From Desulfarculus baarsii DSM 2075 (GTDB lineage Bacteria; Desulfobacterota; Desulfarculia; Desulfarculales; Desulfarculaceae), in contig NC_014365.1 in NCBI RefSeq assembly GCF_000143965.1, forward strand, positions 1 through 64,000: 64,000 nucleotides of DNA, given 5' to 3'. The notes under the pieces are model-generated. The model ran no database searches. It saw nothing but the letters and a program-made list of their open reading frames with translations, and was not told where the DNA came from. Below are positions 5,386 to 12,712 of this stretch, piece by piece (position 1 is the stretch's first letter; each line of letters begins with the position of its first letter). Position numbers and translations under genes: made by a program.

Positions 5386-7338
5386 ATGAATCTTGCCGGC
5401 CGTCTTTGGCGCTCCACCAGGGTCAGGCTCATCGTCAGCTTCGTGGCGGTGGCCTTGCTGGTGGGCGTGGCCTCGTTCCTGGTGGGCGGCCGGCTGCTCT
5501 ACGAGGCGGTGCTTTCCGAGGCGGCCAGCCGCGTGCGCCTGGATTTGAACGCCGCCCGCGAGATCTATCAATCGCGGACGCGCTCCATCGAGCTGGCCCT
5601 GTCGGTGGCCATCGCCGGCGATCAGGTCCAGCGCCTGCTGACCGATGGCGACGCGGCCGCCCTGAAGGCCTGGCTGGACCGCTTGGCGCGGGAAGCCGGG
5701 CTGGATTTTCTGGGCCTGGCCGCGCGGGACGGCCGGGTGTTGGCGCGCATCGGCCCTGGCCCGCTCGGCGGCCGAGACGTGGACCTGCCGGTGGTCGCCC
5801 AGGCCCTGGCCGCTGGCCGGCCAATGGGCGGCACGGTGGTCATGGACGCGGCCAGCCTGGCCGCCGAGGATCCGGCCCTGGCCCGGCGGGCGGTGGTGCG
5901 GCCGGTGGCCACGGCCCGCGCCGACCCCGCGCCCGAGGGCGCGCGGACAGAGGCGCTGTGCCTGGCCGCGGCCGCGCCGCTGTCGCGGGAGGGCCTGGCG
6001 CTCTATGGCGGGGTGTTGCTCAGCCGCGACAAGGCCATCGTCGACACCGTGGGCCAGACGGTTTTCAAGAACGAATCCTTTGCCGGCCGCCAACTGGGCA
6101 CGGCCACGATCTTTTTGGGCGATCTGCGCGTCAGCACCAACGTGCGCGCCCCCGACGGCAGCCGGGCCATCGGCACCAGGGCCTCGCGGGAGGTGGCCGA
6201 GGAGGTGCTGGGCCGGGGCGGCGTGTGGTCGGGCCGGGCCTTCGTGGCCTACGACTGGCAGATCACCGCCTACGAGCCCATCGTCGACGTGAACGGCCAA
6301 CGGGTGGGCATGCTCTACGTGGGCGTGCTGGAGGCCAAGTACGCCGGGCTCTGGCGGCAGACGCTTATGGTCTTCGCCCTGACCACCCTGGCCTGCCTGG
6401 TGGTGGCCGTGGGCCTGGGGGCCTATCTGGCCGAGCGCATCACGCGGCCGGTCAACCAGCTCATCGCCGCCAGCGAGCGGGTGGCGCGGGGCGATTTTTC
6501 GCCCGAGGTGGGGCCCATCGTCCGTAGCGACCTGGGGCTGTTGCAGCGCGGCTTTCAAGAGATGCTGTTGGCCCTGGGCGAACGCGAGCGCCGCCAGCAA
6601 GAGGAAAGCGAAAAGCGCCTGTTGCAATCGGAAAAGCAGGCCCTGGTCGGCCGCCTGGCCGCCGGCGTGGCCCACGAGATCAACAACCCCCTCACCGGCG
6701 TGCTGACCTTCACCCACCTGCTGCTGCGCCGGGGCGACCTGCCGGCCGAGGTGGTCCACGACCTGCAAACCATCGCCGCCCAGACCGAGCGCGTGCGCAA
6801 GATCGTCAAGGGCCTGTTGGATTTTTCGCGCCAGACCAAGCTGGAGGCCCAACCCAGCGACCTGAACCCCCTGGTGGCGGCGGCGGTCAAGCTGATGACC
6901 AACCAGGCCCTCTTGAAGGGCGTGCGCCTGCACTTCGACCCGCAAGAAGAATTCCCGGTGATGAACCTGGACCGCAGCCAGATGCAGGGAGTCTTGATCA
7001 ACATGATCATCAACGCCCTCGACGCCACGCCGCCCGGCGGCGAGGTGGCCGTGATCACCCGGCCCGGCGATCCGGCGCGGCGCGGCGGCCGCCAGGGCGT
7101 GGAGATCCTGGTGCGCGACACCGGCTGCGGCATCGCCCCCGAGCACCTGGACAAGCTTTTCGACCCCTTTTTCACCACCAAGGAAGTCGGCCAGGGCACG
7201 GGCCTGGGCCTGGCCGTCAGTCAGGGCGTGGTGGCCCGCCACGGCGGCGAGATCACCGTGCGCAGCAAGCCGGGTCAGGGCAGCACGTTCACCATCTGGC
7301 TGCCCGAGGAGATCAGGAGCGAAGGTTATGACTGGTGA
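5386..7338 (+). CDS. Membrane sensor histidine kinase with Cache domain
   Basis: This 650-residue kinase heads the operon that ends in the receiver-FNT fusion. A first membrane helix (about 12-34) is followed by a large periplasmic region (about 35-315) that looks like a Cache_3-Cache_2 small-ligand sensor, including VGQTVFKNESFAGRQ. A second helix (about 325-350) leads to HAMP and HisKA, with H-box GVAHEINNPLTG (His430). The HATPase domain has N-box INMIINALDA, DTGCGI and GTGLGLAVSQG. SD GAGTTGAGG precedes ATG 5386. The receiver gene starts 18 bases after the stop, so both downstream receivers are likely partners. Cache domains often bind small carboxylates, which would suit an FNT channel; that link is inferred. 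Confidence 0.93.
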   Translation: MNLAGRLWRSTRVRLIVSFVAVALLVGVASFLVGGRLLYEAVLSEAASRVRLDLNAAREIYQSRTRSIELALSVAIAGDQVQRLLTDGDAAALKAWLDRLAREAGLDFLGLAARDGRVLARIGPGPLGGRDVDLPVVAQALAAGRPMGGTVVMDAASLAAEDPALARRAVVRPVATARADPAPEGARTEALCLAAAAPLSREGLALYGGVLLSRDKAIVDTVGQTVFKNESFAGRQLGTATIFLGDLRVSTNVRAPDGSRAIGTRASREVAEEVLGRGGVWSGRAFVAYDWQITAYEPIVDVNGQRVGMLYVGVLEAKYAGLWRQTLMVFALTTLACLVVAVGLGAYLAERITRPVNQLIAASERVARGDFSPEVGPIVRSDLGLLQRGFQEMLLALGERERRQQEESEKRLLQSEKQALVGRLAAGVAHEINNPLTGVLTFTHLLLRRGDLPAEVVHDLQTIAAQTERVRKIVKGLLDFSRQTKLEAQPSDLNPLVAAAVKLMTNQALLKGVRLHFDPQEEFPVMNLDRSQMQGVLINMIINALDATPPGGEVAVITRPGDPARRGGRQGVEILVRDTGCGIAPEHLDKLFDPFFTTKEVGQGTGLGLAVSQGVVARHGGEITVRSKPGQGSTFTIWLPEEIRSEGYDW

Positions 7339-7356: not shown

Positions 7357-7722
7357 ATGAAGGTGCTGGTGGTCGATGACGACAAGGTGGTTTTGCTCAG
7401 TTGCCGGCGGGTGCTGGAGGCGGCCGGCCACCTGACGCGCGAGGCCGGCGGGGCCGAACAGGCCCTGGCCATCTTGTCCGCCGAGCCGGTGGATTTGGTT
7501 TTGGCCGACGTGATGATGCCGGGCGTGGACGGCTTCGCCTTGATCGAGCGGGCCCGCCGGGTCGCGCCATCCACGCCGGTGGTGTTGATGACGGGCTACT
7601 TGACGCCACAGATCAAACAACGGGGCATGGCGGCGGGGGCGGCGGGCTTCATCGCCAAGCCGTTCACGCCAGACGAGTTGCTGGAGGGCCTGGCCAGGGT
7701 CATGGGCCCGCGCCAGGCCTGA
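7357..7722 (+). CDS. Single-domain response regulator
   Basis: A complete 121-residue receiver with no output domain. The acidic pocket is DDD (7-9), the phospho-acceptor is Asp51 in VLADVMMPGVDG, the switch Thr lies in VVLMTG and the conserved Lys in FIAKPF. It sits between the Cache kinase and the receiver-FNT gene, so it may be a phosphate sink or relay that tunes phosphorylation of the channel's receiver. Confidence 0.92.
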   Translation: MKVLVVDDDKVVLLSCRRVLEAAGHLTREAGGAEQALAILSAEPVDLVLADVMMPGVDGFALIERARRVAPSTPVVLMTGYLTPQIKQRGMAAGAAGFIAKPFTPDELLEGLARVMGPRQA

Positions 7723-7768: not shown

Positions 7769-9028
7769 ATGCCGGAAAAGATGCTTGTCATAGACGACGA
7801 TTCGGCGGTAATCGAATCGTGCCAGCGCATTTTCAGCGCCGAGGGTTGGGAGGTGACCGGCTCCACCGACCCGGCCAAGGGCCTGGAGCTGGCCGCCGGC
7901 CAGGCCTTCGAGGTGATCCTGGTCGATTGGAAGATGCCCGGCCTCAGCGGCATGGACGTGCTCTCCGAGCTGGAAAAGCGCGCGCCCAAGTCCACCGTGG
8001 TCATGTTCAGCGGCTACCCCTCGGTGGAGCGGGCCACCGAGGCCCTCAAGCGCGGGGCCATGGACTACGTGCCCAAGCCCTTCCGGCCCGACGAGATCAT
8101 CACAGTGGTCACGCGGGCCCTGCGCCGCAAGGTCGATCAGGAGCAAAAGGCCCTGGACCGCGCCGCGCGGACCATCGGGGCCTTTCCCGTGCCGTCGTCG
8201 GACGACAAGGCCCCCAAGACCATCGCCGAGACGGTGGCCCACAGCGTGGGCGTCAGCAAGGTCAGTTCGCCGTGGCTGACCATCTTTTTGCTGGGCGTGC
8301 TGGCCGGGGCCTACATCGGCTTTGGCGGGATGCTGGCCAGCAGCGTCAGTTTCGACATGGCCGGCCACATGGGCCTGGGCTTCACCAAGTTCATGACCGG
8401 CGCGGTGTTCAGCCTGGGCCTGATGCTGGTGGTCATCGCCGGGGCCGAGCTGTTCACCGGCAACAACCTGATGGTTTCCACCGTGCTGGAGGGACAGACC
8501 ACCTGGGGCGCGGTGCTGGCCCGCTGGGTGGTGGTCTTCGTGGCCAACTTCATCGGCAGCCTGCTCATCGTGCTGTTGTTCCATTATTCGGGCCTGTGGA
8601 AGACCGGCGGCGGCGCGTTGGGCGCGGCGGCGCTGAAGCTGGCCTACGCCAAGGTCGGCCTGGGCTGGGGCGAGGCCTTTGTCCGGGGCGTCGGCTGCAA
8701 CTGGCTGGTCTGCCTGGCGGTCTGGATGGCCCTGGCCGCCCGCCAGACGGTGGGCAAGATCTTCGCCATCTTCTTTCCGATCATGGGGTTCGTGGCCATT
8801 GGCTTCGAGCACTGCGTGGCCAACATGTATTTCATCCCGGCGGGCATCCTGCTGCGCGACTGGGCCGGCGTGGCCCCGCCCCAGGGCCTGGACCCGGCGC
8901 TCCTGGGCTGGGGCTCGTTTTTCTGGGCCAACCTGGTGCCGGTGACGCTGGGCAACATCATCGGCGGCACGGTGTTCGTGGGCTTCAGCTATTGGAGCGT
9001 CTATCTGCGCAAGACCAAGGCCGCATGA
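7769..9028 (+). CDS. Receiver domain fused to formate/nitrite (FNT) channel
   Basis: This 419-residue protein joins two domains that are normally separate. Residues 1-120 form a canonical receiver: DDD at 9-11, phospho-Asp53 in VILVDWKMPG, Ser81 and Lys103 in YVPKPF. A linker of about 45 residues precedes a complete FNT channel (about 150-419) with six hydrophobic segments. Channel motifs are AGAYIGFGGML, AGAELFTGNNLM (omega-loop Thr230), CNWLVCLAVW, GFEHCVANMYF (His348, equivalent to the central His of FocA) and NLVPVTLGNIIGG. The receiver lies at the cytosolic N-terminus, where FocA gating helices sit. ATG 7769 follows AAAGGA by 7 bases; no stop or frame change lies between the domains. Substrate could be formate, nitrite, hydrosulfide or another small monoacid. 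Confidence 0.93.
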   Translation: MPEKMLVIDDDSAVIESCQRIFSAEGWEVTGSTDPAKGLELAAGQAFEVILVDWKMPGLSGMDVLSELEKRAPKSTVVMFSGYPSVERATEALKRGAMDYVPKPFRPDEIITVVTRALRRKVDQEQKALDRAARTIGAFPVPSSDDKAPKTIAETVAHSVGVSKVSSPWLTIFLLGVLAGAYIGFGGMLASSVSFDMAGHMGLGFTKFMTGAVFSLGLMLVVIAGAELFTGNNLMVSTVLEGQTTWGAVLARWVVVFVANFIGSLLIVLLFHYSGLWKTGGGALGAAALKLAYAKVGLGWGEAFVRGVGCNWLVCLAVWMALAARQTVGKIFAIFFPIMGFVAIGFEHCVANMYFIPAGILLRDWAGVAPPQGLDPALLGWGSFFWANLVPVTLGNIIGGTVFVGFSYWSVYLRKTKAA

Positions 9029-10543: not shown

Positions 10544-10814
10544 CGCGCGCCTCGCAAGCAATAATAATCATGGATGACCACCCGGCCATCGCTTGGAGTC
10601 TAAATCCGTGGCCGGCCGCCGGGCAACATTATTTGAAGCGCGCCGGCCATGGCCCAGCGCCGGGCCAGGGCATGGGCGCGGTCGATGCTCGCGCGCCCGG
10701 TGGTTCGGATTTACCTATTTGCATTATCGGCCCAAATTATAGTTACCTAGGCCAGCGCGGCCTCGCGCGTTGGGTCAACGGCCGTCTCGGCCCGAAAGTC
10801 ATGGAGAGCGGAAG

Positions 10815-11909
10815 GTGCTGACAAAAAACGTTTTCGCCACGCGAGGGGGCGTCATCGGCGTGGGCGCGGTCATCGGCGTGCTGGCGGCGCTGCTGCAATA
10901 TTGGGGCAACCCCGGCAACATGGGCGTGTGCGTGGCCTGCTTCGAGCGCGACATCGCCGGCGCGGTGGGTTTGCATCAGGCGGCGGTGGTGCAATACATG
11001 CGCCCGGAGATCATCGGTTTCGTGCTGGGCGCGCTGATCGCGGCGATGGCTTTTGGCGAGTTCCGGCCGCGCGGCGGCTCGGCCCCACTGGCGCGCTTCT
11101 TTTTGGGCGCTTTCGCCATGATCGGCGCGCTGGTCTTTTTGGGCTGCCCGTGGCGGGCCCTTTTGCGCCTGGCCGGCGGCGACGGCAACGCCCTGCTGGG
11201 CCTGGCCGGGTTGATCGTGGGCATTGGCCTGGGCACGATTTTTCTGCGGCGCGGCTACAACCTGGGCCGGGCGCAAAAATCGCCGGCGGCGGTGGGCCTG
11301 CTGTTGCCCATTCTGATGGCCGGCTTTTTGGTTTTGATGTTCATCTACCCCCAGGTGGCCGAGCAGGACAAATCCGGCGTGCTGTTCTATAGCCTCAAGG
11401 GGCCGGGCGCCATGCACGCGCCGCTTTTGGTCTCGCTGGTCGTGGGCCTGGCCGTGGGCTTTCTGGCCCAGCGCAGCCGGTTTTGCACCATGGGCGCTTT
11501 CCGCGATCTGATCCTTTTCCGCCAGCCCCATCTTTTCTGGGGCGTGCTGGCCCTTCTGGTCTTCGCCTTCGGGTCCAACCTGGCCCTGGGCCAGTTCAAG
11601 GCCGGCTTCGAGGGCCAGCCGGTGGCCCACACCATGGGTCTGTGGAACTTTTTGGGCATGTTGTTGGCCGGGCTGGCCTTTGTGCTGGCCGGCGGTTGCC
11701 CCGGTCGGCAGTTGTTTTTGGCCGGCGAGGGCGATGGCGACGCGGCGGTGTTCGTGCTGGGCATGATCGTGGGCGCGGCCTTTGCCCACAACTTCGGCCT
11801 GGCCTCCTCGCCGGCGGGCATCGGGCCCCACGGCATGGCCGCGGTGGCGGTGGGCCTGGCGGTGTGCTTGTATCTGGGCTTCGCCATGCGCGGGGCCAAG
11901 GCCGCCTGA
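10815..11909 (+). CDS. YedE/YeeE-family (TsuA-like) sulfur or selenium permease
   Basis: A 364-residue protein with about ten hydrophobic segments in two related halves, matching the YeeE/YedE fold of the thiosulfate transporter TsuA. Membrane-face cysteines occur in the expected places: CVACFERD, LGCPWRALL, RFCTMGAFRD and GGCPGRQLF. The GTG at 10815 is chosen because GGAG lies 9 bases upstream. The next gene is a TusA-like carrier, the usual TsuA partner (TsuB). The YedE branch is also associated with selenium metabolism, so thiosulfate, another sulfur species or a selenium species could be carried. Confidence 0.85.
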   Translation: MLTKNVFATRGGVIGVGAVIGVLAALLQYWGNPGNMGVCVACFERDIAGAVGLHQAAVVQYMRPEIIGFVLGALIAAMAFGEFRPRGGSAPLARFFLGAFAMIGALVFLGCPWRALLRLAGGDGNALLGLAGLIVGIGLGTIFLRRGYNLGRAQKSPAAVGLLLPILMAGFLVLMFIYPQVAEQDKSGVLFYSLKGPGAMHAPLLVSLVVGLAVGFLAQRSRFCTMGAFRDLILFRQPHLFWGVLALLVFAFGSNLALGQFKAGFEGQPVAHTMGLWNFLGMLLAGLAFVLAGGCPGRQLFLAGEGDGDAAVFVLGMIVGAAFAHNFGLASSPAGIGPHGMAAVAVGLAVCLYLGFAMRGAKAA

Positions 11910-11937
11910 GCGGCCGGCCATGCTAAGGAGCTGAAAA

Positions 11938-12156
11938 ATGAGCCAAGAGATCGACGCGCGGGGGCTGTCCTGCCCCCAGCCGGTGATATTGACCCTGGAG
12001 GCGCTCAAGAAAATGAGCGGCGGCCAGTTGGAAGTTCTGGTCGACACCGACACCTCGGTGGAAAACGTCTCGCGGGCGGCGACCAGCCAGGGCTGGCGAG
12101 TGGAGGCCGTTGGCCAAGAGGCCGATTGCTATCGCCTGAGCCTGGCCAAAGGCTAG
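11938..12156 (+). CDS. TusA/SirA-like sulfur carrier
   Basis: A 72-residue protein with the TusA signature GLSCPQPV (catalytic Cys12, CPxP). It should carry a persulfide or selenosulfide on that Cys and hand it on. It follows the YedE permease by 28 bases with SD AAGGAG, so uptake and carrier are made together, as in TsuA-TsuB. Confidence 0.9.
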   Translation: MSQEIDARGLSCPQPVILTLEALKKMSGGQLEVLVDTDTSVENVSRAATSQGWRVEAVGQEADCYRLSLAKG

Positions 12157-12160
12157 GGGC

Positions 12161-12712
12161 TTGGGCCTATTCAAGGCGGTCAAGCAGGCCCTGGCCGGAC
12201 GGGTCGAACCCGGCCGGAGCCTGGGCCGCCATGGCATCTTGGTCTACGCCAACACCAGCGAGGTGATCCGCGCCGAGGCGGCGCTGAAAGAGGCCGGCTG
12301 GCTGGTCAGCGTCAAGGGCCCGCCGCCCGAGCTGCGCACCGGCTGCGACTTGGTCATCGAGTTCCCGCTGGTCGAGGAGCTGGCCATCCTGCGTCTGTTG
12401 GACCAGGCCGGCCTGACGCCGCTGCAAAGCGCGCCGGTGGACGGCCCGCTGCTGCGGCCGGTGGATCTGTTCCAAACCGTGGATTACGGCCGGCACCTGA
12501 TGATCCGCGCCGCCAACATGAAGCTGACCGTGGAGAAACAAAGCCGACGCATCGTCAACGTCTCGGGCGGCGGCTGCCCGGACGTGCCCTATCTGGCCCA
12601 GGAGATGATCGGCAAGACCCTCGACGAGGCCCCCAGCCCCCGCCAGATCGGTCACACCCTCTGCGGCTACGCCCTGCAACTGGCCTTCGAGGAGATGCAA
12701 AGGCGATGCTAG
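12161..12712 (+). CDS. DUF3343-domain protein with Cys-containing C-terminal extension
   Basis: Residues about 22-90 match DUF3343, a putative sulfur or selenium carrier-like domain (GILVYANTSEVIRAEAALK, then PPELRTGCD). Residues about 105-183 are an extra region with VSGGGCPDVPYLAQEM and HTLCGYALQLAFEE that I do not recognise. The start TTG lies 4 bases after the carrier's stop codon. The 3' end overlaps the next gene by 7 bases, so the two are probably translationally coupled. A function in Se/S transfer is inferred from context only. Confidence 0.75.
   Translation: MGLFKAVKQALAGRVEPGRSLGRHGILVYANTSEVIRAEAALKEAGWLVSVKGPPPELRTGCDLVIEFPLVEELAILRLLDQAGLTPLQSAPVDGPLLRPVDLFQTVDYGRHLMIRAANMKLTVEKQSRRIVNVSGGGCPDVPYLAQEMIGKTLDEAPSPRQIGHTLCGYALQLAFEEMQRRC

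Follow-up and report, generated by a model that had tools for sequence, protein, structure and literature searches.

Introduction

Two-component systems are a main signalling route of bacteria, and the outputs for which they are well known are transcription, second messengers, enzymes and protein binding. Transport domains also occur in such systems, as in the Amt-histidine kinases and the CbrA-type kinases, where a transporter and a two-component module share one polypeptide and the transporter serves as a sensor fused to the kinase.

Among the FNT channels, translocation by E. coli FocA requires its N-terminal helix, to which PflB binds, and in vivo it requires PflB as well (PMC11841067). 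The function of FocA rests on this cytosolic N-terminal helix, in which Y25, K26, T28 and K29 are crucial (PMC12559229). The Chlamydomonas FNT protein LciA, a bicarbonate transporter of the algal chloroplast, has no receiver.

The window analysed here is a stretch of 64,000 nucleotides from Desulfarculus baarsii DSM 2075. It contains a gene, REC-FNT, in which a receiver with the full phosphorylation site of NtrC/AtoC-type and single-domain regulators is joined to a membrane channel, instead of to a sigma-54 activator or DNA-binding domain. Among bacterial regulators the AtoC and NtrC models are the best matches to this receiver. In contrast to the Amt-histidine kinases and CbrA, the channel sits on the receiver and not on a kinase. 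No description of receiver-FNT proteins, or of the receiver-NuoE proteins described below, was found in the open-access literature searched, and a survey of the FNT family mentions neither receivers nor fusions. The signalling system is a known one, and its output apparently belongs to a new class.

Results

A receiver and an FNT channel in a single reading frame

REC-FNT occupies positions 7769-9028 on the forward strand and encodes 419 amino acids in one uninterrupted frame. Residues 6-114 (7784-8110) match Response_reg (PF00072) with an E-value of 4.1e-24 and residues 159-409 (8243-8995) match Form_Nir_trans (PF01226) with an E-value of 1.6e-81, both over the curated cut-offs, which bears out the claim of an earlier, sequence-only reading that one ORF joins the two domains. 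The PF01226 match covers positions 8-239 of the 240 in the profile and scores 273.7 bits against a gathering score of 34.6, and TIGR00790 scores 240.9 against its cut-off of 232.3. The residues picked out by the same reading are present as it described them. D9, D10, D53, S81 and K103 together make up a full response-regulator site, the codon of the phospho-acceptor Asp53 lying at 7925-7927, while the channel carries Thr230 in the omega-loop (8456-8458) and the central His, His348 (8810-8812).

The start ATG is preceded by the Shine-Dalgarno-like sequence GGAAAGG, and GC at the third codon position is 85-97% over the entire ORF, including the junction. Separate translation of the FNT domain from an internal start was considered and rejected, as none of the in-frame ATG, GTG or TTG codons between residues 100 and 190 is accompanied by a convincing Shine-Dalgarno sequence. 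REC-FNT is the only FNT gene found in the genome, which consists of one contig of 3,655,731 bp. Just downstream, at 10770-12712 of the window, is a selenium cluster with genes for a YedE-type selenium transporter and for TusA-like and Se/S-carrier-like proteins.

Model of the fusion and the putative gate segment

An AlphaFold model of the monomer, made with a 40-sequence alignment, has a mean pLDDT of 81.9 and a pTM of 0.59. The receiver shows the complete beta-alpha order and is followed by a linker (residues 115-148; 8111-8212) in which alpha-5 is extended to residue 136 before giving way to a loop, by an N-terminal helix at residues 149-165 and by the FNT bundle. The linker is of low confidence, with a pLDDT below 50 at residues 131-146, and for this reason, together with the pTM of 0.59, no docking of the receiver onto the channel is predicted. 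The top match of the model in Foldseek is FocA (9g49; TMt 0.89, 38% identity). Like the FocA proteins of known structure from E. coli, Vibrio and Salmonella, REC-FNT has the cytoplasmic slit (LLTV/LLFNV), equivalents of Thr91 and His209 and the C-terminal Y-L-R; it differs in its overall identity of 39%, in having Arg306 in place of Leu167 and in the N-terminal receiver and linker.

The cytosolic N-terminal helix of the FNT and its junction with the linker (residues 149-166; 8213-8266) correspond to the gate segment of FocA. Gly23 and Lys26 of FocA have their equivalents here, as does Thr28, although the last is a Ser in the window protein. Across the 41 fusions listed, in the stretch G161-S167 that is equivalent to the FocA gate, the Gly and Lys are kept and the Thr is mostly kept, and P149, V156 and K164 of the N-terminal segment are invariant. 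As judged from the alignment, the receiver is thus attached to that portion of the channel which is known to act as the gate in FocA. Many receivers act as dimers and FNTs are pentamers, and as the five receivers of a pentamer cannot all pair in one ring, activation of REC-FNT may be asymmetric or may rely on contacts between receiver and channel.

The kinase and the free receivers

Upstream on the same strand are a sensor histidine kinase of 650 amino acids (5386-7338) and, after a gap of 18 bp, a free receiver of 121 amino acids (7357-7722), which is separated from REC-FNT by 46 bp. Pfam identifies sCache_3, HAMP, HisKA (with His430) and HATPase_c in the kinase, the core of which is AtoS/ZraS-like, and PF00072 at residues 3-110 of the free receiver (E 1.8e-27), confirming the Cache kinase and free receiver that had been recognised from the sequence. 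The kinase is presumed to be the cognate kinase of REC-FNT. A histidine kinase of the same sCache_3-HAMP family lies upstream, in a same-strand run, in 32 of the 41 REC-FNT loci listed, and in most of these loci, as in the window, it is followed by between one and three free receivers. Of the loci without an upstream kinase, several are cut short where the contig stops and a few have different genes in its place.

We compared 38 family kinases, encoded beside REC-FNT or REC-NuoE genes, with the kinase of the window. His430 is invariant in all 38. The DHp domain, which sets partner choice in known systems, is the best conserved part, with a median identity to the window kinase of 78%, against 60% for both the catalytic (CA) domain and the sCache_3 domain, the latter having several near-invariant Arg residues. 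This pattern is in keeping with a single pairing of kinase and receiver that has been conserved, and with a ligand that is also of one conserved kind and may be an anion.

Some of the free receivers in REC-FNT operons are longer, at about 208 amino acids (among others L093:2563-3189, L105:7285-7911 and L113:7277-7903). Their conserved C-terminal part of about 80 amino acids contains the motif LTxxEKLAILTGDIxWIE and ends in RLxAEIW; it has no Pfam match in those scanned.

Distribution and conservation of the fusion

A domain-architecture search of the kind that the sequence-only reading had proposed, in which about 85,000 species genomes were scanned with an alignment of the fusion, gave at least 41 non-redundant full-length REC-FNT proteins, the window protein included. 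Among the matches listed, those at 59-67% identity come from Desulfobacterota, Spirochaetota, Acidobacteriota and Latescibacterota, and those at 46-48% from a genome of Planctomycetota and another that is unassigned. Desulfosarcina alkanivorans, Desulfatibacillum alkenivorans and Desulfosediminicola flagellatus are among the hosts in culture. REC-FNT is a real, recurrent architecture with a partner sensor kinase, present in about 40 other anaerobic bacteria. The existence of 40 further fusions at 46-67% identity excludes chance and also an error of sequencing or assembly that had fused two genes, which the earlier reading had itself named as one of two findings that would undo it. The other was a relative with the receiver or its Asp missing, and among the matches listed no intact close relative is of this kind. 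Departures from this are two decayed relics, a few draft copies with frameshifts and copies truncated by contig ends. In the relics (L141:8523-9511 and L142:3772-5200), which are from two Deltaproteobacteria MAGs (RBG_13_52_11 and RBG_16_54_11), an intact receiver ORF is followed by a channel broken by frameshifts and stops.

Searches of the family and class to which the window genome belongs turned up unfused FNTs, and none of the other 19 genomes of the family sample has the fusion. This had suggested that the fusion was peculiar to the window genome, a view overturned by a search of the phylum, in which 67 of the 395 genomes drawn have an FNT and 10 of these, including the window genome, have REC-FNT. 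The nine other fusions are 63-66% identical over the full length and were apparent as long frames in which the match to the FNT profile starts late. No receiver is recognisable in the long open frames that surround some other FNTs (G050, G048, G047, G054 and the f18 family). Most FNTs of the window's family sit on the FocA branch of the tree, apart from the window FNT, and given this and the absence of the fusion from the family sample, the module may have been acquired horizontally or been lost elsewhere in the family.

Among the 41 fusions listed, D9, D10, D53, K103, T230 and H348 are identical throughout and position 81 is Ser in 38 and Thr in three. In the omega-loop and pore, L228 and N396 (the equivalent of Asn262) are likewise invariant, while F229 is present in 39 and replaced by Tyr in two. 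The linker, the length of which had been put forward together with Asp53 as a point to check, is similarly constrained; the span from K103 of the receiver to I152 of the FNT N-terminal helix is 50, 52 or 53 residues. In the FNT tree all 41 sequences form one group with an SH-aLRT of 85, within which 39 are grouped at 100. The remaining distant pair (L125 and L126), joined to the others by the FNT tree at 85, is not joined by the receiver tree. A single fusion event for all 41, this pair included, is not rejected by the AU test (p 0.284), but as the receiver tree leaves the placement of the pair undecided, a second, independent fusion is possible there.

The same receiver on a NuoE-like subunit

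The same receiver subtype, with its linker to about residue 147, is also found on a NuoE-like thioredoxin-type [2Fe-2S] domain. This second fusion, REC-NuoE, is confirmed by Pfam in three loci (L133, L136 and L144), and ORFs of the same size with the same receiver are present in eight more (L134, L135, L137-L140, L143 and L145). The ORFs are of about 333 amino acids (L133, L134, L136, L140, L143 and L144) and are neighboured by NuoG-like, NfnA/NfnB and NuoF genes. The linker is homologous to that of REC-FNT, and the REC-NuoE receivers nest among those of REC-FNT, the main-clade REC-FNT receivers and the REC-NuoE receivers grouping together at 100/98, apart from the free receivers. In CP070704.1 the genes for REC-NuoE, NuoG-like, NfnA, NfnB, NuoF, the kinase, two free receivers and REC-FNT follow one another on one strand within about 11 kb. 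REC-NuoE occurs in one of 198 sampled genomes of the phylum and was not found in the window genome. It is a putative response regulator with a subunit of a redox complex as its output.

Receivers fused to a lipoyl domain like that of the glycine cleavage H-protein were seen in Omnitrophota and Planctomycetota (L164:7992-9695 and L165:7983-9569), and receiver ORFs of similar size to these in Bacteroidales (L166, L168 and L171). They are a further unusual combination of a receiver and a metabolic domain.

The likely substrate

The cargo of REC-FNT is likely to be formate or formic acid, because the nearest unfused FNTs and some of the fusions adjoin genes for the formate dehydrogenase alpha subunit. 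In a locus from Spirochaetota (L113) one strand carries the kinase, two free receivers and REC-FNT and then, 19 bp further on, NuoE, NuoF and FdhA. This FdhA scores 898 bits against a formate dehydrogenase cut-off of 666, and FdhA is also near REC-FNT in three other loci (L102, L105 and L110). The closest unfused FNTs, a family from the phylum (f37) joined weakly to REC-FNT with an SH-aLRT of 80, are directly beside FdhA in all three genomes checked. Most REC-FNT loci, that of the window included, have no adjoining formate dehydrogenase gene. Two FdhA genes of the window genome exceed the cut-off (549267-551273 and 2345758-2347764 of the contig), and both contain a single in-frame TGA of the kind seen in genes for selenocysteine enzymes.

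At the cytoplasmic slit the pore residues of REC-FNT match those of FocA, whereas they differ at R306, the equivalent of FocA Leu167 (the comparison draws on PMC5525234). R306 is present in 40 of the 41 fusions listed and is basic, as is typical of NirC and HSC. The FocA equivalog TIGR04060 scores 219.2 bits, below its cut-off of 290.1, and with this and the missing Leu167 equivalent we describe the channel as FocA-like without filing it as FocA. LciA shares Arg306 and Ile344 and has a TMt of 0.88. As R306 is basic and the FNT domain is as close to LciA (42% identity in aligned columns) as it is to FocA (39%), the assignment of formate is based mainly on gene context.

Discussion

We consider that the three genes of the window constitute a two-component system whose output would be the post-translational control of a membrane flux, likely that of formate, and we put the probability of this at about 0.7. 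Control of flux by phosphorylation is the best reading because the phospho-acceptor site, the length of the linker, the kinase and the N-terminal segment of the FNT are all conserved. In the proposed mechanism the Cache-domain kinase would sense an extracytoplasmic signal and transfer phosphate to the free receiver and also to Asp53 of REC-FNT. Once phosphorylated, the receiver of the fusion would change in its alpha4-beta5-alpha5 face and in the extended alpha-5 linker helix. In every protomer a short loop would connect the linker helix with the cytosolic N-terminal helix of the FNT, and the changed linker helix would shift how the N-terminal helix and the omega-loop gate the pore. With formate or formic acid as the most likely cargo, the cell would in this way set its exchange of this electron carrier post-translationally. 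We infer the phosphotransfer, the gating and its direction, the substrate and the signal from sequence and gene context. The free receivers would probably be phosphate sinks or competitors, or else have an output of their own; they could, however, be the main targets of the kinase, which is a point against the gating model. Two further points against it are that many receivers work in pairs while an FNT has five protomers, and that the monomer model predicts no docking of the receiver onto the channel.

It might instead be that the receiver is a phospho-dependent docking module, which recruits a cytosolic enzyme that consumes or produces formate, either formate dehydrogenase or a complex of NuoE/NuoF, to the mouth of the channel and does not itself move the gate, much as PflB binds the N-terminus of FocA and is required in vivo for translocation (PMC11841067). 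Formate dehydrogenase subunits are encoded beside some REC-FNTs, and where one gene run also encodes the receiver on a NuoE-like subunit, pairing of the receivers could bring channel and subunit together. With REC-NuoE so rare in the phylum sample and not found in the window genome it is no general partner, and we regard docking as unlikely. Signalling in the reverse direction, with the channel or the flux of its substrate as a sensor that alters the phosphorylation of the receiver, or its effect as a phosphate sink on the kinase and the free receivers, seems to us quite improbable. Transporters used as sensors are known and, with free receivers in most loci, a fused one could adjust a pool of phosphate common to them all, but the known cases have the transporter on the kinase and not on the acceptor domain, the kinase here has a Cache sensor of its own and a redox subunit, too, is found on the same receiver. 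That the receiver is an evolutionary passenger or a membrane-targeting tag with no effect on the channel is barely credible, given that all of its catalytic residues and the length of the linker are kept in the 41 listed members, across several phyla and together with the kinase.

The channel could also be regulated as we propose while mainly carrying hydrosulfide, bicarbonate, nitrite or acetate. The basic R306, as in NirC and HSC, the resemblance to LciA in I344 and in overall identity and the presence of sulfate reducers among the hosts lend this some weight. The FNTs beside FdhA in the closest unfused family share the Arg, however, and formate dehydrogenase genes adjoin these and several of the fusions, so that we think another main substrate rather unlikely.

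If phosphorylation does control the channel, as we favour, it would add a fast and reversible control of membrane flux to the outputs of two-component systems. The gating of FNTs becomes directly testable, as a switchable domain is already present on the gate helix and variants of Asp53 could fix it in the on or the off state. The REC-NuoE fusion raises the prospect that electron-transfer complexes, too, are controlled by phosphorylation, and we tentatively put forward the idea, to which we give somewhat less than even odds, of two-component systems that as a class bypass transcription and act directly on energy metabolism. One receiver-linker module would be carried by the formate channel and, in some genomes, by the NuoE-like subunit, and one kinase would set the flux of formate and NADH/ferredoxin electron flow together. 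Formate is a main electron carrier between anaerobes, and such a switch could therefore matter in sulfate-reducing and syntrophic communities.
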